From Lysobacteraceae bacterium NML95-0200 (GTDB taxonomy: Bacteria; Pseudomonadota; Gammaproteobacteria; Xanthomonadales; Xanthomonadaceae), in assembly GCA_002798255.1 (NCBI GenBank), contig NWQQ01000019.1:62001-126000 (forward strand): 64,000 bases of DNA, in the 5' to 3' direction. The notes beneath the pieces are model-generated. The model saw only the letters and a list, made by a program, of their open reading frames with translations. It searched no databases and had not been told where the DNA came from. Both the position numbers and the translations under genes were made by a program. Below, in pieces: positions 1 to 27,817 of this stretch (position 1 is the stretch's first letter; every line of letters begins with the position of its first letter).

Positions 1-756
1 GCGTATGCCGCTGACCGCTTCGCGCATCTGGGTGAGTGCATCGCGGGCGATGGCGGCCACCTGCTGCATTTGCCCGGCGGCAGCCTGACTGTCCTTGTCA
101 GCCAGGCGTTGTGCCAGTTCAGCCTTCAAGACCACAGTGGACAGGGTTTGCCCGAGGCTGTCGTGCAGGTCGCGGCCAATGCGTTCGCGCTCGGCCATGC
201 TGGCCAGCCTGCGCACTTCATCCTGGGTCAGCTTCAGCGCCGCCTGCTCGCGCTGGCGCTGCTGCTCCAGATAGTTGAAGAAGAAAATCGTGATACTGAG
301 CAAGGCCACCGTGCCAATATGCAGTCCTGCCCATTGCAGCGGGTAATGGCGCCACACCCATGCGCCATAAATGAGCTGCATCAGCAAAAGCGCCGCCAAT
401 TTGCCGCGCAGGCCGCCATGCAGATAAATCAGCAATGCCCCGGCATAAATCACATAGGTATTGGCAAACGCATTGCAGGGCAGCAAGCCGATACCAAGGA
501 CAAAAACACCGGCCAGCGCCCAGGGCTGGTAACGCCTGTCTGCATGCAGCACACAAAAGTACAGCGGCAAAAACAGCGCGACTGAACATAAAGTCGCACC
601 CCAATGGAACGGCACCTGCCGCCAGTCATCGCTGACGCTCAACCAGCGCCCCAAAAGCGGTACAAACAGGAATGCCAGATAAGCCAGGCTCAGCAATGGC
701 TCCCAGCCATGCTGGGCGGTGTAGTTTTGCAAGCGGGTGGCGAGCGCGCGTTTCAT
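1..756 (-). CDS. Sensor histidine kinase, DesK/NarL type (3' part beyond left edge)
   Basis: An open frame of 252 codons runs from an ATG at 756 off the left edge, so the ATPase domain is not visible. Residues 20-161 contain about six hydrophobic segments, forming a membrane sensor without a sizeable external domain. A short linker leads to ERIGRDLHDSLGQTLS, the phosphoacceptor helix of HisKA_3 kinases, with His198 as the presumed phosphorylation site. The start lies 11 nt after the stop of the ABC permease, so the three genes probably form one operon. In such cassettes the kinase and a LuxR-type regulator usually control the adjacent exporter; the regulator would lie left of the window. The signal sensed cannot be read from the sequence. 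Confidence 0.85.
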   Translation of the reverse strand, partial: MKRALATRLQNYTAQHGWEPLLSLAYLAFLFVPLLGRWLSVSDDWRQVPFHWGATLCSVALFLPLYFCVLHADRRYQPWALAGVFVLGIGLLPCNAFANTYVIYAGALLIYLHGGLRGKLAALLLMQLIYGAWVWRHYPLQWAGLHIGTVALLSITIFFFNYLEQQRQREQAALKLTQDEVRRLASMAERERIGRDLHDSLGQTLSTVVLKAELAQRLADKDSQAAAGQMQQVAAIARDALTQMREAVSGIR

Positions 757-16356: not shown

Positions 16357-16668
16357 TCAGGTCAACTTGATTTGCACGTCAACACCCGCAGCCAGTTCGA
16401 GCTTCATCAGCGCGTCCACGGTCTTGTCATTGGGGTCAACGATATCGAGCACACGCTTGTGCGTGCGGGTTTCGTACTGGTCGCGCGCGTCCTTGTCGAC
16501 GTGCGGCGAGACCAACACGGTGTAGCGTTCAGTCTTGGTCGGCAGCGGAATCGGGCCACGCACTTGCGCGCCGGTCCGCTTGGCCGTCTCGACAATCTCG
16601 CTGGCCGAGCGATCGATCAGGCGGTGATCGAAGGCCTTGAGCCGAATGCGGATTTTTTGGTCCGTCAT
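16357..16668 (-). CDS. rpsJ: 30S ribosomal protein S10 (NusE)
   Basis: 103 aa, starting [20 protein letters not shown] and ending [11 protein letters not shown]. Besides its place in the 30S head, S10 pairs with NusB in antitermination complexes. The frame stays open upstream to 16950 but that part has no similarity. First gene of the S10 operon. In close relatives tuf normally lies directly upstream; here the CRISPR array begins 395 bp upstream instead. Confidence 0.98.
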
Positions 16669-17063
16669 GACGGAAGTTCCTCGGTTAATAGCCCTGCCTT
16701 TCAGCAAAGCCCCTGCAAACGCAGGAAGTTCAAAAGAGCGACAGGTGAAACGGCTATTTGCGCCCCACCCCGTTACAACCATCCATTCAACAACAATGGC
16801 GGCCCGGTCACCCGGCCCGCCCAGAGCAAAAACAAACGCGCAATGCCCCACACATGGGGAGCCCCACGCGACCTGTCCTTGTCTGGCGAATACGAGGCAC
16901 TCCCTGCACCTCATTTCGCTGGCACCGTGGAAGCATACATCCTTCCACAATCAGTCGCGCATTTTGACACAGACTTCCAGCAAATGCAAAGATTTGTATC
17001 CAAACCTATTGCGCTGCCCGTACGGCATGAACGCCGAATCGCCCGAACCCGGAGCCGAAGAAT
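16669..17063 (-). other. Leader and promoter region of the S10 operon, no gene
   Basis: 395 bases between rpsJ and the distal end of the CRISPR array. No ORF with family character is present. The region must carry the S10-operon promoter because the upstream str operon is cut off by a terminator and the cas locus; one candidate is listed separately. An L4-responsive leader would be expected here from E. coli but no convincing structure was identified by eye. Confidence 0.6.
16961..16989 (-). promoter_or_regulatory. Candidate promoter for the S10 operon
   Basis: On the minus strand TTGCAT (16984-16989) and CAAAAT (16961-16966) are separated by 17 bp, about 290 nt upstream of rpsJ. Each box matches the sigma-70 consensus at four of six positions, so this is a moderate candidate, supported mainly by the need for a promoter downstream of the CRISPR array. 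Confidence 0.35.
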
Positions 17064-17691
17064 TTTCTAAGCTGCCTGTGCGGCAGTGAACAACTGGCTG
17101 ATGTGGTGGCGCTATAGCGGGATTTTCTAAGCTGCCTGTGCGGCAGTGAACAAGAGGCGCTGCTGGCCGACCGCGAGGCCATCTTTCTAAGCTGCCTGTG
17201 CGGCAGTGAACATTTGTGAGCGGCTATCACGCGGCGAGCCATTTTTCTAAGCTGCCTATGCGGCAGTGAACTGGAATGCCTGCGTATCGGACGGTGCGCG
17301 ACTTTTCTAAGCTGCCTATGCGGCAGTGAACCGCCTCGTGCTCGGTCTCCAACCGCGCCAGCATTTCTAAGCTGCCTATGCGGCAGTGAACCCATCGGCG
17401 GTGGCGCCACCGGCTCCACCTTTTTTCTAAGCTGCCTATGCGGCAGTGAACTGGCTCATCAAGTGGACGCTGGACACGCACGATTTCTAAGCTGCCTGTG
17501 CGGCAGTGAACGGTGGCACAAACCCGCTGCTGGCCAGCGCAGTTTTCTAAGCTGCCTGTGCGGCAGTGAACGAAGTGGACCGCACCACCATCGTGATCCG
17601 CCGTTTCTAAGCTGCCTGTGCGGCAGTGAACTATCGCCGAGTTGCATCGCGGCGTGCATCTGTTTTCTAAGCTGCCTGTGCGGCAGTGAAC
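17064..17691 (-). CRISPR. Type I-F CRISPR array, 11 repeats and 10 spacers
   Basis: Eleven 28-bp repeats start every 60 bp from 17064 to 17664, leaving ten 32-bp spacers, the exact I-F geometry. In crRNA orientation (minus strand) the repeat opens GTTCACTGCCG and ends GGCAGCTTAGAAA; CTGCC/GGCAG is the 5-bp Cas6f hairpin. Repeats 4-7 counted from the left (17244, 17304, 17364, 17424) have loop CGCATA where the other seven have CGCACA; otherwise all are identical, including the last. Transcription runs leftward from the leader at 17692-17821, so the newest spacer should be the one at 17632-17663. Spacers are GC-rich and differ from each other; origins unknown. Confidence 0.98.
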
Positions 17692-17821
17692 TAGAGCACT
17701 TCCACTCTAATCTTTTGTTTTTCAAAGAACAATGAGGATTTCCAGCCTGCAAACCCAATTTTCTTTTGGGCTTGTATCTTATTGATTTCAAAGGCCGTCC
17801 TTGGCCATTGAAATTTTTGGG
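17692..17821 (-). promoter_or_regulatory. CRISPR leader
   Basis: 130 AT-rich bases between cas6f and the first repeat. They contain no gene. On the minus strand TTGTTC (17727-17732) and TAGAGT (17704-17709) with a 17-bp spacer form a candidate promoter whose start would fall at the first repeat. An A-rich stretch upstream could host IHF, as in other I-F leaders, but a site was not established. Confidence 0.6.
17704..17732 (-). promoter_or_regulatory. Candidate crRNA promoter in the leader
   Basis: TTGTTC-17-TAGAGT on the minus strand, directly upstream of the first repeat. The -10 box matches consensus at four of six positions. Position and orientation fit pre-crRNA transcription. Confidence 0.45.
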
Positions 17822-18382
17822 TCAAAACAGGGGGACGCTGCCGCCAAGGCTGAGTCCGTGGCTATTGAAGCCGCCTTGGCTGGGCTGTTGGACTGGGCGC
17901 TGATCAAGGTAGAGGCGATAGCGTTGGCCAGTGCTACGGCTGTACAGGGTAACAAAAGGCAAGTCCAGGCGGTCGCCCGAGCCATCAGGGATGCATTCGC
18001 GTGCTGCATCTGCACTCAAGCGATGCCGACGCATGGCACGCTTGCGCATGTTTTTTGCACTCTTGGCCTGACGCCGCCCCACTTGCAGCCAGCCCTGTGG
18101 CTTGGGTGCAGGCATAAGCCTGGTGCTATGCAAGTGGTCGCGCATCCCGCGCAACCAGTCCTGCTGCATCAAGCACTCAAGCGCCGTTTCCTGCCCATGC
18201 AAGCGTAGCTTCAAGCCCAAGGTGGGATAAGCGCCATCACGCCAGCCGGGAAAGCTGATGCCGATGCTGTTTTCTTCAAGCATCACCAAGACGCGATGAA
18301 GTTTCGCCACAAGTGCATCCATCAGCACATGCTGCGGAAATTCATCATCCGGTTGCAGGGTGAATTCGATATAGGCATCCAT
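17822..18382 (-). CDS. cas6f: Cas6f (Csy4) crRNA-processing endoribonuclease
   Basis: 186 aa, the usual Csy4 size. It cuts pre-crRNA 3' of the repeat hairpin and stays bound to it in the Csy complex. MDAYIEFTLQPDDEFPQ matches the family start, and His29 in KLHRVL is the catalytic histidine position. The arginine-rich helix RRQAKSAKNMRKRAMRRHRL inserts in the hairpin groove. The STGQRYRL strand carries the serine of the active site and the C-terminus is GLSLGGSVPLF. The ATG at 18382 is 1 nt from the csy3 stop; the longer in-frame start inside csy3 is rejected. Last cas gene, next to the leader. Confidence 0.96.
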   Translation of the reverse strand: MDAYIEFTLQPDDEFPQHVLMDALVAKLHRVLVMLEENSIGISFPGWRDGAYPTLGLKLRLHGQETALECLMQQDWLRGMRDHLHSTRLMPAPKPQGWLQVGRRQAKSAKNMRKRAMRRHRLSADAARECIPDGSGDRLDLPFVTLYSRSTGQRYRLYLDQRPVQQPSQGGFNSHGLSLGGSVPLF

Positions 18383-18383
18383 C

Positions 18384-19415
18384 TCAAGCCTCGCCGAATA
18401 CGCCACCACGAATCAATACCGCCATGACATAGTGCTGCTGCGCTTCAGTCGGCACTTTGTCTTTCAGCATCCAGCCATCGAACAGGGTATAGAAGTCATC
18501 TTTGCTGCCTTTGGGCTGGCGATAGGCTTTGCCTTGGGTCGTCACTGAACCATAAGGCTCCACGGCAATTGGGCCATTACCCTCCGCCTCTTGATACCAG
18601 TCATCCACGGTGCGCAGGGCATTGCCGATTTTCTGCGAGTGCATGGCGGCGATGCCGTCTTGTTTTGCCCCCACAAAGTAGAGCGTTTTGCTCTTGTCGC
18701 CACGACCACGATCCAGAATCAACTCCTGCGAGGGGAAAACCTCTTGCCCATTCCCAATACGCACATAGGCAGTGATTTGCAGCAGCACATGAGTTTCCCC
18801 ACGCAAACCCTGGGCAATCAAATCGGCAAGGGCTTGCAGCTGTGCCTGCGCATCACTGGGCACATTGAAATCACGCAACGAGAAACTCAGGGCATCAAAG
18901 CGGCCGACAAGCGTTGCTTGCCCCTGCTGAAAGCGGGTGACTTCCACTTCCACATCTTCTGCGCCCACGCGGTTGCGCCACAAGAAGCGGCCATTGGCAA
19001 GATTGATGGCGTAGCGGCGCGCCAGTTCACGGAAACCGTGCCTGGTCGCATAGTCCTGCGCCAAGGTGATGAGCTTTTTCTGATAATCGGCCTTGTTGCA
19101 GGCCGAAGGCTGACCCACGCCCGGCAATACGCGCAAGGTGAAGCGCACCCGCAGGGTGTCGGCATCCATTGGCAGGGCGGCAACATCCACGGTTTGCAGA
19201 TTGGGCTTGTCGATCGCGGCATCGAGCTTGAGCGGGTCTTGCTCAGCAGCTTTCAGGCGATTGGAAATCGTGCCGCGCACCGATTTTTCCTGAAGGCGCA
19301 CCGGCGACCAGCCCCGGTCATCATTGCGCGCCGCCCAATTGCCTGAATGAAAGAGTGCATCGGACGGGTCGAGTTTGCGTTCAAAAGCCAAAACGGAAGG
19401 GGTTTCTTTACTCAT
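18384..19415 (-). CDS. csy3: Cas7f (Csy3), crRNA backbone subunit of the Csy complex
   Basis: 343 aa. Family-typical segments include [50 protein letters not shown] and [13 protein letters not shown]. Six copies normally line the 32-nt spacer, each covering six nucleotides and flipping out every sixth base. A good AGGAGCT Shine-Dalgarno precedes the ATG at 19415, 14 nt after csy2. Ends 1 nt before cas6f. Confidence 0.96.
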
Positions 19416-19429
19416 GATGCAGCTCCTTG

Positions 19430-20410
19430 TCAGTCGAAGATGGAATAAAACTCGTCATCCGAGTCATCGTTACAGCGGTAGTCATTGCGGCAGCGATACA
19501 GGCCTTGCCCGGGCGGGCTATCGGCATACCAAAGCAGTTGCTCTGCGGTTTGCAGCCGGTGCGGGCTAACCCATTCACCCAGCGAATACAGGCTTTCGAC
19601 AAATTGGAACGGCGTGCCTTCATCGCGGGCATTGGCGACCGTTCCCGGTGCCTGCCTCTCTGTCAGCGCGGCATAGCCCACCGGGATGGGCACGACCCAA
19701 CCACTGCCTTTGGGCCGGTCATGCTGCCAACGGCCTTCCTCGTTGTCATAACGCCAGTTCAGGCGCGAGCGCGATAGCCAGGCATCCAGCACCGTGGCTT
19801 CAGGGTTTTCTTCACGCAATGTAGTGAGTGCTTCTGCCAGCAGGTCATCACGCGCCACCAGCGCAAAGCCGGGCAACAGGCGCAGGCGAAGCCGCTCAAA
19901 AAGTGCCTGCCGGCCAGCTGCATCGCCGGTCATCGCCACCCAGTACGGTGCGGTGTAACGCTTTGCCGGCAACAGCACGCCACCTGCAATGCGCATGGTC
20001 TGCACCATTTGCGCTATTTGCTCTGCCAAGGCCTGGTCCGCCGCTTCATCCATACCAAGCTTGACCCAATCCACTGCCAACACCAAACTGATTTGCAGAT
20101 GAATGCGACCTTCTTCCACAATCGCAGCCGTTTTTCCATCTCTTCCAATGGGATTACGCGTCAGGCTGAAGCCCTTGATATAGGCATCGTTCACCAGCAC
20201 CTGATGGCGATGGCAGACCACACCCACGGCGCGGAACTTCAACCCCGAAATGCCTGAGGCAACCAGCTTGCGCTGCAAAGCCCACATCAAGCCGATAAAG
20301 GCCGTCATGGCAGGGAAGCCATGGGTCAGCGGGCTGGAGATAGCATTGGCTGCCTGCACCTGCAAGCGCGGCAAGACCAGCAAATGGCTGTAATCCGGGC
20401 AGTGACTCAT
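19430..20410 (-). CDS. csy2: Cas5f (Csy2) subunit of the Csy complex
   Basis: 326 aa. Starts [20 protein letters not shown] and contains [20 protein letters not shown], characteristic of Csy2. In the complex it caps the 5' handle of the crRNA with Csy1. The ATG at 20410 overlaps the csy1 stop by 4 nt (ATGA), which decides it over a longer in-frame start within csy1. Confidence 0.95.
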
Positions 20411-21771
20411 GCCGATACCTCCGTGTGCCAATCGCGGCTGGATGGCAAGTCACGCCGAATCGGATTCGGCCAGTCGGTATCCACCAAAGCCTGTCGCGCA
20501 AAATGACGCAACTCGACACTGCCGACGGCAAAGCCGTTATCGCGCAGCCATTGATTGAGCCATTGCGCAAAACGCTCGGCAATTTCATCCGGCCAATCCT
20601 GCCTCTGCCAAGCCGCCTTGAAGATCTCGTCTGCGGCATAGCCATCCGGGTCTTGAGCCTGATCCCGATTGGGCAGCCGAGCACGCTCCGGGTCAAGCCA
20701 GAGCTGTTCGCAAAGAGGGAGCCTGCAGGCGGCATCACGCGTCCAGCCGGGCGGATAGGAATCTCGCACCGTGACTGCAAAGGCAGCCAAAATGCTGCCC
20801 AGCCGCTGTTCCATGGCACGGCGCTTCTGGTCTTGCTGCATCCGTCGCTGCTTATACGTGCCAAGATGCCGTGCAAGTGCTTCAAGCTGCTGCTGCATGT
20901 CCTGGAAATGCAAAAGGCGCATGAAGGCGGTATCCAGATTCAGAAAGCTGCGTGGACGGTAACCATTCCAAATCGGGGGGAATGAGGCCAGCAAATAGTT
21001 GCTGCCGCCACGTTCGCTATTGAGCTGCGAAATGTTCTGTGGCTTGGTGCCGCCCAGCTTGCGAATGGCAAGTTCGGGATATTCTGGAATTTGCATATCG
21101 CTGGGCTTTTTATCCCGCCGCGCGCGCCTAGCCTCGACAATGGCCACATCAAAGCGGCTGTATTGAATGGCCTCGTGTACCGCTTGCACCAAGCTGCTGG
21201 GAAACATCGGCTGCAACAGGATGTATTCACTGTCATCACCGGCATCCTCGCCTGTGCACCAATACAACTGCTTGGCATAGGTGTGGCTGGCGTAGCTGTC
21301 CGCCTCACGCTGCAAGCTGCAAAAAGCATCAGCATAAGCCCTGGCGGTGTCGGGATTGTCTGACAGTGCTGCAAGCAGGTCGGTATCTGCTTGCAGCAAC
21401 CAATCCAACAAACGCTGACCTTCCACTTCCAGCCTCAGCAATTTGTAAACATCCAGTGCTGCGGCATTGCCCACGACATCTTCGGCAAACTGCATGCCCA
21501 ATACATGCGAGCCAAGTTCATCACGAGCCGGCAAATTGGCAGGCGGCACAAACAGGCTGCTGCCTTTGGCATCGGGGTGCGTCGCTTTCAGCACATGGGT
21601 GACCATCTGAATTTGTGCCACGCGGCGCGCGGCATCAGCCAGCCAAGTGTCATAGTCATATTTGGCCGCCTGCGCTGAATCGGCAGCCTCTGCGCCTTTG
21701 AGCTTGGCATCGCGACGCTCCTTGATAAAGCGAGCGATAGCCTCATAAAACTTTTGCTTACGTGAATCCAC
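20407..21771 (-). CDS. csy1: Cas8f (Csy1), large subunit of the Csy complex
   Basis: 454 aa. The signature GGTKPQNISQLNSERGG (about residues 240-256) followed by SNYLLASFPP identifies it; Cas8f reads the 5'-CC PAM. The start is GTG at 21771, preceded by AAGGAG at 21782-21787; an in-frame stop just upstream rules out earlier starts. First gene of csy1-csy2-csy3-cas6f, tightly packed with overlaps. The operon is separated from cas2-3 by 389 bp containing a strong minus-strand promoter, a palindrome beside the start and a mini-CRISPR, so its expression is probably controlled there. Confidence 0.95.
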   Translation of the reverse strand: MDSRKQKFYEAIARFIKERRDAKLKGAEAADSAQAAKYDYDTWLADAARRVAQIQMVTHVLKATHPDAKGSSLFVPPANLPARDELGSHVLGMQFAEDVVGNAAALDVYKLLRLEVEGQRLLDWLLQADTDLLAALSDNPDTARAYADAFCSLQREADSYASHTYAKQLYWCTGEDAGDDSEYILLQPMFPSSLVQAVHEAIQYSRFDVAIVEARRARRDKKPSDMQIPEYPELAIRKLGGTKPQNISQLNSERGGSNYLLASFPPIWNGYRPRSFLNLDTAFMRLLHFQDMQQQLEALARHLGTYKQRRMQQDQKRRAMEQRLGSILAAFAVTVRDSYPPGWTRDAACRLPLCEQLWLDPERARLPNRDQAQDPDGYAADEIFKAAWQRQDWPDEIAERFAQWLNQWLRDNGFAVGSVELRHFARQALVDTDWPNPIRRDLPSSRDWHTEVSA

Positions 21772-21787
21772 GGGTAATCAACTCCTT

Positions 21788-21804
21788 ATGACCATAGTGG
21801 TCAT
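21788..21804. promoter_or_regulatory. Perfect palindrome upstream of csy1 (putative operator)
   Basis: ATGACCA-TAG-TGGTCAT, a 7-bp perfect inverted repeat with a 3-bp centre, 17 bp upstream of the csy1 GTG and just upstream of its Shine-Dalgarno. On the minus strand TATACC (21806-21811) directly precedes it, so a protein bound here would cover a start site. The length and symmetry suit a dimeric repressor; the protein is unknown. Confidence 0.5.
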
Positions 21805-21852
21805 GGTATAGAATGCCCGCAGCAATCTGCTGCGAGTGGTTTTAGATGGATG

Positions 21853-21869
21853 GGCTCCTGATCGGAGCC
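21853..21869 (-). promoter_or_regulatory. Hairpin directly after the mini-ORF
   Basis: GGCTCC/GGAGCC with a 5-nt loop, beginning at the base after the mini-ORF stop codon. There is no T tract. Its arms are complementary to those of the 5' hairpin at 21953-21982, so the two could exchange partners. Confidence 0.5.
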
Positions 21870-21902
21870 TTAACCTCTTAAGGCGCGATGTGTGCCAATC
21901 AT
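21870..21902 (-). CDS. 10-codon mini-ORF with perfect Shine-Dalgarno (CreT-like toxin or leader peptide)
   Basis: Encodes MIGTHRALRG. AAGGAGGT at 21907-21914 is a full match to the anti-Shine-Dalgarno, 4 nt before the ATG. It lies about 80 nt into the transcript predicted from the csy promoter. Codons 8 and 9 are UUA and AGA, normally rare in GC-rich genomes. CreT toxins of CreTA modules are tiny ORFs of this design that trap rare tRNAs and are silenced by Cascade bound through CreA at their promoter. The promoter upstream here has such a target. An attenuator leader peptide for csy1 is the main alternative. The signals are plain to see; the function is inferred. Confidence 0.5.
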   Translation of the reverse strand: MIGTHRALRG

Positions 21903-21952
21903 CTCGACCTCCTTACTTTCTTCGCCGAATTGATGGGATACCAGATTGCTCT

Positions 21953-21982
21953 GAACGGCTCCCGTTGCAGCGGGAGCCGTTC
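21953..21982 (-). promoter_or_regulatory. 12-bp hairpin at the 5' end of the csy transcript
   Basis: GAACGGCTCCCG/CGGGAGCCGTTC with a 6-nt loop, perfect over 12 bp. The predicted start of the csy transcript (about 21980) falls at its edge, so the mRNA would begin in a stable stem-loop, which commonly protects 5' ends. It lacks a T tract on either strand, so it is not a normal terminator. Confidence 0.6.
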
Positions 21983-21986
21983 ACCT

Positions 21987-22014
21987 ATATTACCTACCCA
22001 GAACTTAATGTCAA
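21987..22014 (-). promoter_or_regulatory. Promoter of the csy operon / mini-ORF
   Basis: On the minus strand a perfect -35 TTGACA (22009-22014) and TAATAT (21987-21992) are 16 bp apart, the strongest sigma-70 promoter in the cas locus. The start would be near 21980, giving a leader of about 209 nt before csy1. A protospacer-like target of the neighbouring mini-CRISPR begins 2 bp upstream of the -35 box. Confidence 0.75.
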
Positions 22015-22015
22015 T

Positions 22016-22043
22016 CCATTGCCTGGGAAATTTCAATATCCAT
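22016..22043 (+). promoter_or_regulatory. Cascade target site T1 for the pseudo-spacer, next to the csy -35
   Basis: A 5'-CC PAM at 22016-22017 is followed from 22018 by a match to the 26-nt pseudo-spacer at positions 1-5, 7-11, 13-17, 19, 23 and 24. Over the first 19 positions only 6, 12 and 18 mismatch. These are exactly the bases flipped out of the guide-target duplex in type I effectors, so effective pairing would be unbroken over the seed and mid region. Too short a match for expected cleavage; placed for steric repression. Confidence 0.7.
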
Positions 22044-22073
22044 TGCTTGGAATACTTTACAAGCCCCGAGCTG
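22040..22073 (+). promoter_or_regulatory. Second seed-match site T2, upstream of the mini-CRISPR promoter
   Basis: CC at 22040-22041 is followed by ATTGCTTGG (22042-22050), identical to pseudo-spacer positions 1-9. The rest matches poorly in register, though TTT-CAAGCCC recurs with a one-base shift. A complex here would end next to the extended -10 at 22072-22080, so it could feed back on the mini-CRISPR's own transcription. T1 and T2 footprints overlap. Confidence 0.5.
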
Positions 22074-22080
22074 GTAGAAT
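22072..22080 (+). promoter_or_regulatory. Extended -10 promoter of the mini-CRISPR RNA
   Basis: TG-G-TAGAAT on the plus strand (TG 22072-22073, -10 box 22075-22080, five of six to consensus). No clear -35 at normal distance, which an extended -10 can tolerate. The predicted start, about 22087, falls at the first base or two of pseudo-repeat 1, so the RNA would have essentially no leader. Confidence 0.6.
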
Positions 22081-22085
22081 CCAAT

Positions 22086-22113
22086 CAACCCTGCCGTACA
22101 GGCAGCTCAGAAA
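22086..22113 (+). repeat. Pseudo-repeat 1 (22/28 identical to array repeats)
   Basis: Differs from the array repeat at positions 1, 2, 3, 5, 12 and 22. The hairpin stem and the AGAAA end are kept; the changes cluster at the 5' end, which the mature RNA would not contain, plus one loop base and one handle base. Confidence 0.85.
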
Positions 22114-22139
22114 ATTGCTTGGGAGATTTCCAAGCCCTA

Positions 22140-22167
22140 ATCCACTGCCGCATAGGCAGCTTACGGG
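22140..22167 (+). repeat. Pseudo-repeat 2, 3' end degenerate
   Basis: Bases 4-24 equal the CATA-loop variant of the array repeat; bases 1 and 3 and the last four are changed. This keeps exactly what the 3' hairpin of a crRNA needs and discards the next 5' handle. It overlaps the cas2-3 stop codon (22161-22163). Confidence 0.85.
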
Positions 22168-25100
22168 GAATACGCACTTCCCCTCTCATCTAGTACCCCC
22201 AGCACCAGGTCCCAATACCATTGATTGAGGCCTGTGCGCTTCGGGGCTTCAACTTCGGTATAGCGTTTGGCTGCATCCATCAGGCTGATGGACTTTTCTT
22301 CTGCCAAAGGCCTTAAAAGCTCAAGCAAGTCAAACTGCATCCAGGGCGAAATACCGGGGGCAATTTCTAGTTTCAACGACTTAACCTCGCCTTTTGCCGA
22401 GGCGTACAGGCTGTGCTTTCCGTCTTGCAAAACGAAGTGAGCCTCAAGGCAGGTTTCATCTTCGTCTGGCAGGAACACGAAGGTTTGCTCACCATAGGAC
22501 GAGTCGCGGAATGGTTGCTGCTGCGGCATGGCCCAGGTCAGGTGCGCCAGCGGCAATGTCCAGAAGGTGCTGGCATTGGGCTCCTGTGGCTTGTCGGTGC
22601 GCAGCGACAAATACATACGCGCATGCTCCAGATCCACCAGCCGACTTTGCCATTGCAGATCATGGATGCTCTGCGCACGTTGGATACGCGGGCGGGCATC
22701 AAGGACTTGGTAGTGCTCGTCGGGCAGCAGGATTTGCAAGTTGTTGCTGCTCATGCGCAGCGGACGTGCTTTTTTATCGAGCAGGGAGGATTGCTCCTCC
22801 TCAAACCCCGGCCGGATAAATGCCGCCTCCCCCGGCTTCTCGAAACTGCGCAGGTTGCGCTCGAAAATCAGCACATTCGGGCTATCCGGGCTTCCCTCAC
22901 GATGCCGCCACACCCGTCCGGCCAGCTGGATCAGCGAGCGCATGGAAGAAGGCTCAACCACAGCCCAGTCGTAATCGTGGTCACGCCCCACCTCGGCCAC
23001 GGGACTGGCCAGCACCACAAACACATGATTCTTGGCGGGATAACGCGCCAATAGTTCACGCACTTCCGGATGCGACAGCACCGGGTCGGTTTCGCCACGA
23101 CGGTCCAGCACCTTGTCCAGTACGCGCTCGATTTCCGAGCGCATCAGCAACGGGAAGCGCGCGTGATATACGCAGAGATGGATATGGGTATCGGCAGGCG
23201 CGCCTAACCGGAACAACTCTCGCGCCACCTCCTGCAATGGGCCGATGTTCGCCATGCGCACCAGCCCAAAGCTCACCTGTTTGCCGCTGCTCATGTCCGT
23301 TTGTGCATGGCGTTGATGGGCTTGCAACATGGCCGCCTGCACCTGCACGGCAAACGCCTTGCGGATTTCTGGCTCGGTTTTTGCAGCAATCTCCAGCGGC
23401 AACAATTCACCCTTGCGCCTGGGCGCTTCCCGGCTCAATGCCTTGATGCGCTTTTCAATGAATGTCTGATGTTGCGTCTTGAACTGCGCCAAGTCACTGC
23501 ATGCAGCCGCTTCAACGCGATATTCGTCCACCCAAAGGCAGGCGACTTCCGGCGTGCTGGCCTGCCCGCCATGCTGGCCGCGATTACGCTGGTAATGGGC
23601 ACGGCCTGCCGCATACGCCTGATACAGCCCCTGCACCAAATCCGGCGGCAGCGTGGCTGATGACAACAACACCCGGCTCCCCAGAAGTCCCGCCCAATGC
23701 ACCAGCCTTGCCAGTGCCGGAATATCGGCCAGGTCAAAATCATCCGGCTCATCCAGTACCAGGTCACTGCTCATCAGCCGCAGCATCGGTGCAATTTGCC
23801 GCCCGGCGCGCTGCGCTTCGGTAGCCGGAGTCAGATGGTCAATGGTGCACACCAGCACCGGCGCGCTCAACAGGCTTTTGATGCGTGCATCTTGCAGCGC
23901 CATGCGCAGCAGTGGGTGGTCGGCAGTATGCCCTTCGTAAACGACACTGCCTTCCTCCTCCATCAAGGCCTGGCTTGAAGCCGAGCCGCTGCGCTCTGCG
24001 CGCTGCTCGTGATACTCGAATAGTTCACGGCTTGCTGCACCGCCCACCCGGATGGCGATGTCATCCTCATTCAGCCCCAAGTCTTTCTGAAAAGAACGCC
24101 CGGTTTGCAGGGTCAAGCTGCGCAGGCCGACGGCAAAGCTGCAACGCATCCCGCGCTGCGGGTTGGCCAGTGCTGCCATGATGCGGGCATTGGCCAGCGT
24201 CTTGCCGCGTCCGGTAGAGGCCATATTGATGATGAAAGCGCCATGCTCGTCTGCCCTGTGGCGCAGGCTTTCTGCTGCATCAAAGGCTTTGTCCTGCCAG
24301 CGAAAGCGCGCATCTTTGCTGCGCTTTCTAAACCGCTTGTGTTGCAGATGCGGCAAATGCCCGGCAAAGCTCGGCAAGTGATGGCCGATATAGCCTGCAT
24401 CCCGGGTCACGCCCAGCAAATGCTCGTCCAGCTTCTGCTTGAGCTTGCCATCGCTATCGGTATTGGCATACAGGGTGCAGGCTGCATCGCCTGTGACACG
24501 GCGCCCATCCCCAGGCTTCAGTGATGAATAATGGTGGTCGGCCAGCATCAGTCCCATGCGGGCGATATGCATGACATACGGGTTTTCCAGCCATGCGCCC
24601 TTGCCCGCTTTGGCCTGCAACTCCAGCAATTGCCGTGCAAGCCGGGCGGCACGCGCCCGCCATGCGGGCAGCAAGACCGGCAGCTCGCCTGCCATTTGCC
24701 AATAGGGCTGCAATTGGCTTGGCGATGCCTCGGCAAGCTCGGGGTTCCAATCGTTCCAGCCAACACGGATGCTTTGCCATAGTTTTTCTGGCTGCAAATC
24801 CAGCGGATTGAACTTTTCAGACTTCTTCCCAAACCACGGGTTTTGCGTGTTCTGGACGACCGGCAAAGTCAGCAATCGATGATGTGTCACCACCAGCCAG
24901 GCGATTGCAGCGGCCAGCGGCGGCAAATCCTTGAACGGCGGTTTGCTGCCAGCATCCAGACCATCGCGGAACAGGCGCGCGCTATCCAACCAAGTGGCAT
25001 CATCTTCTGCGGTGGGCGCTGCCAAACGCTGCAACCAGCTGGCATCGTCATCGGTGCCCACAAAGGCCAGAAATAGCCGCAGTGACAGCCATTCGTGCCG

Positions 25101-25538
25101 GTACAGATTGCGCTCGAACTGCTGGCTGCGCAGCCGCTTCTGGAACGAAACGCTGGCTTTGCCAAGGTCATGCAGCAATGCGGCCATCTGCATCAACAGA
25201 CGGATATCTTCAGCGCTATGCCAGTCGTTTTCATCGTCGGCGCGTATCACATTGCCTCGCGTGGTGTTGGTCGGCACTGCACCCTGAGCATTGAAGCGCG
25301 TGGCATCGCCCACCACCCACAACAGTTCGGAATGGTTGATGCCGCGTATCCAGTGACAAGCCACGGCGGTATTTTTACGCGCCGTTTTGCGCAGCAAACG
25401 GCGCAGCGTATCCAGCCCATCCCGGGTTATCGGCGTTTGCCAGGTGCGCTCACCGCGCCGTTCGGCGAACTGGTCAAGAATACGGCGGGTCTGCTTTAGC
25501 GCCTGGCCACGGCACTCGGAAATCAGCAGGATATTCAT
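22161..25538 (-). CDS. cas3: Cas2-3 fusion, nuclease-helicase of type I-F
   Basis: 1125 aa. Residues 1-90 are the Cas2-like domain typical of type I-F, used with Cas1 for adaptation. An HD nuclease follows (WHSAEDIRLLMQMAALLHDLGKAS; His123-Asp124 as the HD pair). The superfamily 2 helicase has Walker A STGRGKT, a DEPD Walker B and motif III LLSSATLPP. The C-terminal 200 residues form the accessory domain. It is recruited by target-bound Csy complex to degrade DNA. The ATG overlaps the cas1 stop by 4 nt. The stop codon lies inside a degenerate CRISPR repeat read on the other strand. Confidence 0.97.
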   Translation of the reverse strand: MNILLISECRGQALKQTRRILDQFAERRGERTWQTPITRDGLDTLRRLLRKTARKNTAVACHWIRGINHSELLWVVGDATRFNAQGAVPTNTTRGNVIRADDENDWHSAEDIRLLMQMAALLHDLGKASVSFQKRLRSQQFERNLYRHEWLSLRLFLAFVGTDDDASWLQRLAAPTAEDDATWLDSARLFRDGLDAGSKPPFKDLPPLAAAIAWLVVTHHRLLTLPVVQNTQNPWFGKKSEKFNPLDLQPEKLWQSIRVGWNDWNPELAEASPSQLQPYWQMAGELPVLLPAWRARAARLARQLLELQAKAGKGAWLENPYVMHIARMGLMLADHHYSSLKPGDGRRVTGDAACTLYANTDSDGKLKQKLDEHLLGVTRDAGYIGHHLPSFAGHLPHLQHKRFRKRSKDARFRWQDKAFDAAESLRHRADEHGAFIINMASTGRGKTLANARIMAALANPQRGMRCSFAVGLRSLTLQTGRSFQKDLGLNEDDIAIRVGGAASRELFEYHEQRAERSGSASSQALMEEEGSVVYEGHTADHPLLRMALQDARIKSLLSAPVLVCTIDHLTPATEAQRAGRQIAPMLRLMSSDLVLDEPDDFDLADIPALARLVHWAGLLGSRVLLSSATLPPDLVQGLYQAYAAGRAHYQRNRGQHGGQASTPEVACLWVDEYRVEAAACSDLAQFKTQHQTFIEKRIKALSREAPRRKGELLPLEIAAKTEPEIRKAFAVQVQAAMLQAHQRHAQTDMSSGKQVSFGLVRMANIGPLQEVARELFRLGAPADTHIHLCVYHARFPLLMRSEIERVLDKVLDRRGETDPVLSHPEVRELLARYPAKNHVFVVLASPVAEVGRDHDYDWAVVEPSSMRSLIQLAGRVWRHREGSPDSPNVLIFERNLRSFEKPGEAAFIRPGFEEEQSSLLDKKARPLRMSSNNLQILLPDEHYQVLDARPRIQRAQSIHDLQWQSRLVDLEHARMYLSLRTDKPQEPNASTFWTLPLAHLTWAMPQQQPFRDSSYGEQTFVFLPDEDETCLEAHFVLQDGKHSLYASAKGEVKSLKLEIAPGISPWMQFDLLELLRPLAEEKSISLMDAAKRYTEVEAPKRTGLNQWYWDLVLGVLDERGSAYSP
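22165..22183 (+). terminator. Weak hairpin after the mini-CRISPR
   Basis: GGGGAA/TTCCCC with a 7-nt loop, followed on the plus strand by TCTCATCT. A possible weak terminator for the small RNA, lying antisense in the end of cas2-3. Confidence 0.35.
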
Positions 25539-26506
25539 GCGCGGCGCCCATGCATGGCGATGTCTTTCAAGGTCTCAATCATGAAATCCAGTGCCTCCAT
25601 GCGGGTCAGTTGCTCAATGCAGGTCTGCCGGAATGCCTGCTCCTCATCGCCACGCATGGCCGAGACAAAGGCTTGCGGCAATATCACCGCGTCCTTGACC
25701 AAGTCAGCCACATCAAATACCAAGCCACCGCGCCGGGTCTTGCCATGCAATACGGCCAAGCCATGCGGCAGCCCCAGCACCCAGGTGGCGCTGGCCGCCA
25801 GCCCATAGGCCAGATAATTGCCGTGATCCAGAAAACGGTTGGCGGGGTCAAGGCCGGTGCCGCGCTTGGCCCGACTAAAGTCGCCATAGCCACTGGTGCG
25901 CGCAGCCAACGCAAACAAGGCTTTGCTGAGCCTGGCTTCTTCGGTCAGCAGTGCGGTGATATCGGGGCAACTGGCAACCACTTGTGCAGATTTTTCCAGC
26001 AACTTTTTCAGTGCACCGGCATCCACCTCAAAACCGGTCTCGCGCAATGGCTTTGAGTTCTGCCACTGCTGTGCAATACAGTGCAAACGCGCTTGCTGTA
26101 GTTGCTTGGCCGCCGCAAGCCTGGCCTCATCATCAAACCAGAACGATACCCAGGCTTGCAGATATTCGGTGGAGCGGTATTCGCTCTGCGGGCTGAACCA
26201 GGCCACATCAATATCCACCTCGTTGGCAGAAAACAGTGGCGTGCCGCCACCGCCACAAAAGCCCACCATCACTCCAGCCTTGGCAAACTCACGCATCGCC
26301 GCCTGCGTGACCGAAGTGCCCGTCCCCAGCAGCACGACCGAAGTATTGGCGATGGGGATATTCCAGTACAGCGATTGCTTGCCGGCATCGGTGACGTATT
26401 CCACCCGCCCGCCATTGACCAGCACCCGGCAATGCTGCAGGTAATAGATATTGGCACGCTTGGATAGCAGGATGGTTTTAAGGTCGGAAGCGGCAATATC
26501 GTCCAT
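25535..26506 (-). CDS. cas1: Cas1 spacer integrase (type I-F)
   Basis: 323 aa from the ATG at 26506. An N-terminal beta domain (SKRANIYYLQHCRVLVNGGR) is followed by the all-alpha catalytic domain with NEVDIDVAWFSPQSEYRSTEYLQ, EEARLSKALFALAARTSGYG and LAYGLAASATWVLGLPHGLAVLHGK, containing the metal-binding Glu, His and Asp residues. An in-frame start 22 codons upstream is less likely because MDDIAASDLKTIL is the usual I-F start. Translationally coupled to cas2-3. About 65 bp separate the start from the tuf terminator, which must hold its promoter. Confidence 0.95.
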   Translation of the reverse strand: MDDIAASDLKTILLSKRANIYYLQHCRVLVNGGRVEYVTDAGKQSLYWNIPIANTSVVLLGTGTSVTQAAMREFAKAGVMVGFCGGGGTPLFSANEVDIDVAWFSPQSEYRSTEYLQAWVSFWFDDEARLAAAKQLQQARLHCIAQQWQNSKPLRETGFEVDAGALKKLLEKSAQVVASCPDITALLTEEARLSKALFALAARTSGYGDFSRAKRGTGLDPANRFLDHGNYLAYGLAASATWVLGLPHGLAVLHGKTRRGGLVFDVADLVKDAVILPQAFVSAMRGDEEQAFRQTCIEQLTRMEALDFMIETLKDIAMHGRRA

Positions 26507-26570
26507 GGGATGTCCACTCAAAAAAATGCACTTTAGCGCAGCATCCGCTTGCTTTCCCATGCACAAAAAC

Positions 26571-26597
26571 AAACCCCCGGCTTATCGCCGGGGGTTT
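26571..26597 (-). terminator. Intrinsic terminator after tuf (copy 1)
   Basis: AAACCCCCGGC/GCCGGGGGTTT, an 11-bp stem with a 5-nt loop. On the minus strand it runs into TTTGTTTTTG. It insulates the cas operon from the highly expressed str operon. Confidence 0.88.
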
Positions 26598-26626
26598 GAG
26601 TATTGCCTTGTGGCAGATATCAAGAA

Positions 26627-27817
<1,191 letters not shown>

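Follow-up and report, generated by a model that had tools for sequence, protein, structure and literature searches.

The closest described counterparts of the element considered here are small RNA modules embedded in loci of clustered regularly interspaced short palindromic repeats and their cas genes (CRISPR-Cas). CreTA, a type VIII toxin-antitoxin, is represented in Acinetobacter type I-F systems by modules in which creA and creT lie divergently in the gap between cas3 and csy1, together with a CC protospacer-adjacent motif (PAM), a Shine-Dalgarno sequence, and a 33-bp mini-open reading frame (mini-ORF), and CreT has been reported to be toxic by experiment (PMC10097628). For strain WCHA45, the same work proposes a start-codon hairpin whose 23S-matching loop contacts ribosomal RNA, its inner pair being essential; its authors state that what CreT acts on in this characterized bacterial case has not been identified, and small size and poor conservation are said to have impeded systematic CreT discovery (PMC10097628). 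Haloarchaeal CreT sequesters rare tRNAs, using AGA-AGA in H. hispanica and AUA-AUA in H. hubeiense (PMC8501985). Two further designs are CreR, a CRISPR RNA (crRNA)-like autorepression of cas genes in types I-B, I-E, and V-A, for which the CreR passage of PMC13131331 names no type I-F example, and CrePA, a CRISPR-repressed protein toxin (PMC12737573). Here we describe a mini-CRISPR between cas2-3 and csy1 in the type I-F locus of Lysobacteraceae bacterium NML95-0200, within a 64,000-nucleotide stretch of contig NWQQ01000019.1 (the window, to which all positions refer), and read it, from its sequence, as probably part of a type I-F CreTA module that would guard an RNA toxin beside csy1.

The locus, comprising cas1, cas2-3, csy1, csy2, csy3, and csy4, lies on the − strand of the window, and the module is placed with CreTA because of its position, layout, and guide-target logic. 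With the modules of WCHA45 and LoGeW2-3, the latter one of three strains named in PMC10097628, it shares the cas3-csy1 gap, divergent creA and creT, two pseudo-repeats, and the CC PAM. Pairing of guide and target is partial in all of them, with mismatches at positions 6, 11, and 18 in WCHA45 and at 6, 12, and 14 in LoGeW2-3. The 33-bp mini-ORF, the Shine-Dalgarno sequence, and CAT as codon 5 are likewise those of Acinetobacter CreT, and the LoGeW2-3 mini-ORF (ATG TTT AGC ACA CAT TTA GTT AGA AGG GTC TAG) has its length and ACA CAT at codons 4-5 in common with that of the window. The anatomy of this known kind of module nonetheless varies: the targets of the window lie upstream of the −35 box, whereas that of Acinetobacter CreTA lies downstream of the promoter; there are two tandem sites; the inner hairpin pair is lost; the rare codons appear to be tuned to the host, TTA-AGA standing at codons 8-9 where LoGeW2-3 has AGA-AGG; and the host belongs to another family, the Lysobacteraceae.

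The other systems resemble the window in part. Haloarchaeal CreT, archaeal and of type I-B in H. hispanica, and compared with the window by description only, also combines two consecutive rare codons, a downstream stem-loop, and crRNA-like CreA control (PMC8501985), whereas the pair of the window stands at codons 8-9 and varies with the host. CreR likewise uses a guide partly complementary to a promoter within the cas locus (PMC13131331, PMC12737573), but in the window the first gene after the targeted promoter is a predicted mini-toxin rather than a cas gene. CreA-like control of a toxin is shared with CrePA (PMC12737573); unlike in CrePA, there is no room for a protein gene from cas2-3 to creA, because the stop codon of cas2-3 overlaps the second pseudo-repeat.

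The first-pass annotation had described two degraded I-F repeats flanking a 26-nt pseudo-spacer, opposite in strand to the cas genes and the main array, and both the coordinates and the identities to the array repeat bear this out (Table 1). Matches of the two pseudo-repeats to Rfam CRISPR-DR4 score below the gathering score. The selective decay noted earlier is also evident, in that the first pseudo-repeat keeps its stem and the 3′ handle CTCAGAAA, the second keeps its stem, and the unused parts have drifted. So, too, is the extended −10 element TGGTAGAAT upstream of the first repeat, although this was recognized by reading and was not listed by the promoter scan; TAGAAT is also present 14-16 nt before the stem of the first pseudo-repeat in the sister loci L038 and L039. 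From the first base of the handle (22106) to the last of the second stem (22159), a 54-nt CreA RNA is predicted, given the usual Cas6f cut position, and on that assumption its boundaries agree with those proposed before. Repeat-like elements around a pseudo-spacer, close to the cas genes, are the arrangement of creA in CreTA. Read on the − strand, the pseudo-spacer also contains a palindrome with AATTTTCT after it, a terminator-like signal that could shield creT from transcription coming out of cas2-3; this palindrome is absent in NML08-0793 (L039).

The pseudo-spacer matches two sites on its own strand just upstream of itself, starting at 22018 (site 1) and 22042 (site 2), each preceded by CC, the type I-F PAM. 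Site 1 matches at 15 of 18 positions, a score equalled by 0 of 1,000 shuffled spacers, and abuts the TTGACA of a − strand promoter, that of the putative creT; site 2 falls between site 1 and the extended −10 element of creA. The pseudo-spacer thereby has the partial match to a PAM-flanked creT-promoter site that a CreTA guide calls for. Across 39 related loci, each retained for a match of at least 11/18, the mean match ranges over 0.87-1.00 for positions 1-5 and 7-11 and over 0.64-0.90 for positions 13-17, with dips to 0.23 (position 6), 0.23 (position 12), and 0.13 (position 18). Type I effectors flip out every sixth base, and these dips are therefore the pattern expected of a guide acting through the Csy complex. 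NML08-0793 shows concerted changes of spacer and target at positions 10, 17, and 19. A second target site of at least 11/18 is present in 11 of the 39 loci.

The related loci were drawn from a csy1 search with matches in 25 of 297 genomes of the family and from a scan of named genomes for csy1, of which the best 80 of 393 were retained; removing duplicates between the two sets reduced 105 loci to 92 distinct ones. The first pseudo-repeat occurs in the cas3-csy1 gap of 40 of the 92, and 39 of those 40 carry a CC-flanked target of at least 11/18 (at least 13/18 in 34). Conserved pseudo-repeats in related I-F loci, proposed earlier as a check, are thus found, guide and CC target together occurring in 39 of 92 loci distributed over gamma- and betaproteobacteria. 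Among the 53 loci without the guide, the gap is at most 210 nt in 38, longer in 11, and unknown in 4. Control windows from the same loci contained the first pseudo-repeat in 22 of 3,447 cases, together with a target of at least 11 in 3 and of at least 13 in 0, once 400 windows with more than one candidate, taken as mostly arrays, had been set aside; when such windows were kept, 247 of 2,604 had a sequence like the first pseudo-repeat and 46 a target of at least 11 as well. Swapped spacers reached at least 11/18 in 123 of 1,640 pairs and 13/18 in 37, sister-locus swaps included, and for own spacers, two duplicates still included, the figures were all 41 (by selection) and 35 of 41.

Plasmids carry such modules as well. 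Six of the 17 plasmid records matching csy1 were examined; four of them have a guide together with its target at looser cut-offs, and L165 and L167 lack the combination at those cut-offs. A scan at slightly looser cut-offs recovers the published LoGeW2-3 module from its plasmid, and that match passes the strict cut-offs too. An Acinetobacter-like mini-ORF pattern was found in 0 of 369 genomes of the class, in which I-F carriage was not established. Taken together, the proposal of a guide RNA for the mini-CRISPR is strongly supported. That it is a functionless, decayed mini-array, as the degenerate repeats might suggest, is scarcely credible given the periodic match to a PAM-flanked site, the paired changes in a sister species, and the presence of the module in gamma- and betaproteobacteria.

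The first product of the targeted promoter would not be csy1. It would be a 200-nt leader with a 5′ hairpin, a Shine-Dalgarno sequence, and a mini-ORF, and such a divergent mini-gene behind the target is the layout of creT in CreTA. The promoter is the only sigma70-like site that the scan found in 21600-22300 (0.6 expected from shuffles). The mini-ORF is followed by a stem-loop, another hairpin, and then csy1, some 200 nt beyond the promoter. The 211-nt stretch reaching from the 5′ hairpin to csy1 shows 4 and 1 differences in the two sister species, giving identities to the window of 98.1 and 99.5%, against 94.1 and 93.3% for csy1 itself. By eye, a hairpin with GATTCTAC similar to the one near csy1 recurs in many relatives, and a hairpin followed by GGGGATTCTAC or the like precedes csy1 in many CreT-bearing loci; the complement of GGGGATTCTAC reads TANAAT, like a −10 box directed away from csy1, and an antisense RNA to creT is therefore conceivable.

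Of the earlier proposal of a CreA/CreR-type guide, the partial complementarity and the CC PAM at a promoter stand; the csy operon may be a regulated unit, but one probably secondary to the CreT mini-gene. A pure CreR, in which the guide represses the csy operon as feedback on the supply of crRNA and Csy proteins and the mini-ORF is an incidental leader, would accord with the targeted promoter being the only such site found upstream of csy1 in the scanned interval and with the lack of a terminator after creT. It fits better in seven of the 39 relatives (L029, L040, L060, L061, L063, L069, and L117), whose target lies within 90-174 nt (target included) of the csy1 match; these loci by the blind rule for mini-ORFs described below, and the Psychrobacter plasmid L168 by inspection, have a target near csy1 and no mini-ORF. 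Yet csy1 expression needs none of the features found in 28 of the 39 loci, namely, a strong Shine-Dalgarno sequence and a mini-ORF, mostly with rare codons and a start-codon complement, and the 38 loci with a gap of at most 210 nt have no such region at all. The mini-gene between target and csy1 weakens CreR as the sole reading, which we consider improbable. Beside this, L060 and L069 (betaproteobacteria) and L168, with the target close before csy1 and no mini-ORF, are candidates for a type I-F CreR.

Both functions may also be combined, with CreA repressing one promoter that drives creT and then, by readthrough, csy1-csy4, so that an addiction module would double as a Csy autoregulator. A shared promoter and direction, with no terminator found between creT and csy1, is compatible with this arrangement, as is the existence in the family of both CreT-type and direct-to-csy1 layouts. 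Against it, the csy genes could be transcribed from upstream of cas1, as is likely in the loci with a gap of at most 210 nt, and hairpins intervene between creT and csy1. We regard this combination as possible, if somewhat doubtful.

The codons of the mini-ORFs follow recurrent patterns. Mini-ORFs were selected blind to codons, by Shine-Dalgarno sequence and spacing, within a position window (90-170) that was fixed after the sequences had been seen, and the rule yields one in 28 of the 39 creA loci. The codon reference was the csy-strand genes of each host, an earlier reference of ORFs on both strands having seemingly misjudged some loci (L051, L054); the P values ignore relatedness, and 26 of the 28 mini-ORFs are distinct. 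Judged against the host csy genes, the rarest pair of neighboring codons is less frequent than expected at P<0.05 in 26 of 28; it stands at codons 8-9 in 16, and in 21 neither of the other frames has a pair as rare. The pair itself differs by locus (TTA-TTA, TCA-TCA, ATA-ATA, AGA-AGA, AGA-TTA, AGG-AGA, and TTA-AGA, among others). In 15 genes of the window, TTA (2/6417) and AGA (4/6417) are the two rarest of the 61 sense codons, and the 2.38-Mb host genome, whose close relatives are Lysobacteraceae bacterium NML07-0707 and NML08-0793, has 46 tRNA genes, with one tRNA-Leu(UAA) and one tRNA-Arg(UCU). A tRNA-sequestering CreT would be expected to combine a short mini-ORF, strong initiation signals, and neighboring rare codons, as does the putative CreT of the window, which probably sequesters rare tRNAs. 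Literature searches aimed at other points, and passages of PMC10097628, contained no statement on rare-codon pairs in type I-F CreT.

Should the mini-ORF instead be a leader peptide, ribosome stalling at its rare codons would shift the downstream hairpins and so control csy1. In many loci hairpins do follow a rare codon pair ahead of csy1, but the codons switch among Leu, Arg, Ile, and Ser with no evident link to amino-acid metabolism, a terminator-like hairpin is present in only 4 of the 28 mini-ORF loci (1.2 expected) and lacking in the other 24, the window included, and the Acinetobacter homologue was reported toxic by experiment (PMC10097628). Such an attenuator is very unlikely.

The second recurrent pattern concerns the start codon, which codon 5 complements in 22 of the 28 loci (3.2 expected); at codons 2, 3, 4, 6, and 7 the complement occurs in 1, 4, 9, 3, and 1 of 28, respectively. 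The start-codon hairpin described for WCHA45 is thereby extended to further loci. Toxicity might arise as proposed for WCHA45, from a start-codon hairpin whose loop contacts 23S rRNA, with no tRNA sequestration. The complement at codon 5, 6, or 7 in 26 of 28 loci, with the inner pair formed in 19 and the outer in 21 of these 26, speaks for this mechanism, but none of the three sister genomes can form the inner pair that WCHA45 requires, and the switching rare codons are left unexplained. In the window the 5-bp start-codon stem of WCHA45 is incomplete, four pairs being possible and 4:12 being A-A. A purely WCHA45-like mechanism is somewhat unlikely here. A plain alignment of the 28 CreT leaders has only two invariant columns.

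Several observations weigh against the favored CreTA reading with a tRNA-sequestering toxin. The blind rule finds no mini-ORF in 11 of the 39 creA loci, of which three (L041, L045, and L086) have one by eye. The rare-pair test failed in L062 (P 0.08) and L095 (P 0.18), and the rarest pair of L077 stands at codons 2-3. Synonymous changes at codons 2, 3, and 5 are reported to abolish toxicity in WCHA45 (PMC10097628), which argues against rare codons as the cause there. The A-A at 4:12 leaves the inner hairpin pair of the three sisters unpaired, and RNA folds of the leader show another hairpin; under the published WCHA45 rule, toxicity could therefore be weakened. NML08-0793 has lost target pairing at positions 11 and 14, and 11 of the 53 loci without the guide have a gap above 210 nt. 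Lastly, the scan found no terminator-like site between creT and csy1 on the − strand, and control of csy1 by readthrough is therefore possible.

From these features we infer how the CreTA module would be transcribed and processed, and how repression and toxicity, with their mechanism, might come about. CreA RNA from the + strand mini-CRISPR would be cut by Csy4 and loaded into the Csy complex, which it would place on site 1 through about 15 base pairs beside the CC PAM. Lying against the −35 box of the creT promoter, the complex would keep RNA polymerase off without cutting. The gene silenced in this way, creT, would specify a short RNA with a stabilizing 5′ hairpin, a perfect Shine-Dalgarno sequence, and a ten-codon mini-ORF with TTA-AGA. 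Were the Csy proteins lost or blocked, creT would be turned on and the cell arrested, most likely by the tying up of the single-copy tRNA-Leu(UAA) and tRNA-Arg(UCU). CreA may also limit its own synthesis through site 2, which lies on the side of the creA promoter. A fuller version, which we put forward tentatively and as somewhat short of probable, sees bacterial type I-F CreT as a tRNA trap tuned to its host, in which a hairpin pairing the start codon with codon 5 is followed, three codons on, by two of the rarest host codons (TTA-AGA, TTA-TTA, AGA-AGA, TCA-TCA, ATA-ATA, and others), re-tuned between hosts, with one guide that would silence the trap, limit its own promoter via a second operator, and meter the csy operon by readthrough.

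The variant anatomy of the module offers a direct way of testing how bacterial CreT acts. Three rules, namely, mismatches at positions 6, 12, and 18 of a target beside CC, a start-codon complement near codon 5, and a rare pair often at codons 8-9, cover most modules and rest on 28 to 39 modules from 92 loci. If true, a tRNA trap tuned to host codon usage would secure the retention of CRISPR-Cas in many gamma- and betaproteobacteria, and the cell would probably be punished upon loss of its CRISPR defense.

Table 1. Features of the type I-F locus and the putative CreTA module, in window coordinates.
Feature	Position	Strand	Remarks
Main CRISPR array, 11 repeats	17064..17691	−	
csy1	20407..21771	−	TIGR02564
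Hairpin near csy1, then GGCATTCTAT on the − strand	21818..21834		
Stem-loop right after mini-ORF stop	21853..21869	−	RNA fold
creT mini-ORF, 33 bp, ten codons and stop	21870..21902	−	ATG ATT GGC ACA CAT CGC GCC TTA AGA GGT TAA
Tandem rare codons TTA AGA (codons 8-9)	21876..21881	−	Two rarest sense codons of own genes
Shine-Dalgarno AAGGAGG of mini-ORF	21908..21914	−	Perfect
5′-terminal 12-bp hairpin of predicted CreT RNA	21953..21982	−	Fold of 206 nt, z −5.2; identical in both sisters
Putative creT promoter, TTGACA-16-TAATAT	21987..22014	−	Sigma70-like scan; TTGACA and TAATAT unchanged in both sister species
CC PAM and target site 1	22016..22037	+	16/20; mismatches at 6, 12, 18, 20
CC PAM and target site 2	22040..22061	+	14/20; first 9 nt perfect; upstream of and running towards creA promoter
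Extended −10 TGGTAGAAT of creA promoter	22072..22080	+	Read from sequence
Pseudo-repeat 1 of creA	22086..22113	+	21/28 to array repeat; Rfam CRISPR-DR4 E 1.4e-4
8-nt 5′ handle CTCAGAAA	22106-22113	+	From pseudo-repeat 1
Predicted mature CreA RNA, 54 nt	22106..22159	+	Assumes usual Cas6f cut
creA pseudo-spacer, 26 nt	22114..22139	+	First 17 nt equal target 1 except positions 6, 12
Pseudo-spacer palindrome, then AATTTTCT	22117..22135	−	Terminator-like for transcripts leaving cas2-3
Pseudo-repeat 2 of creA, source of 3′ stem	22140..22167	+	22/28 to array repeat; Rfam CRISPR-DR4 E 4.3e-3
cas2-3	22161..25538	−	TIGR02562; stop codon overlaps pseudo-repeat 2

The entire I-F locus (16357-27817) sits between tuf and rpsJ, within the ribosomal protein cluster and co-directional with it, and the same placement is found in the two sister species (L038 and L039). 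When the whole gap sequence was compared with plasmid records, the only match was L162:3001-3079 (Acinetobacter sp. ANC 7974), 77% identical over 18% of the query, which adjoins a type I-Fv cas6f gene.

Further occupants of long cas3-csy1 gaps are actual or apparent type II toxin-antitoxin genes, which run against csy1 and lie after the cas3 stop and before csy1 (or creA), in L040, L041, L051, L060-L063, L065, L072, L076, L086, L089, L090, L095, L104, L106, L107, L115, and L117. Pfam assignments for ten gap proteins from 8 loci comprise PIN, Phd/YefM, HepT, nucleotidyltransferase, HTH_3, BrnT, MqsA, and PaaA2, the rest being recognized by eye. The creA scan was negative in five of these loci (L065, L076, L090, L104, and L107). 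Several relatives thus carry type II toxin-antitoxin genes in this stretch, which are at most candidates for control by CreA. In L040 and L041, a Phd/YefM-like gene apparently starts just after the second pseudo-repeat, and the cas3-csy1 gap may be a stack of addiction modules.
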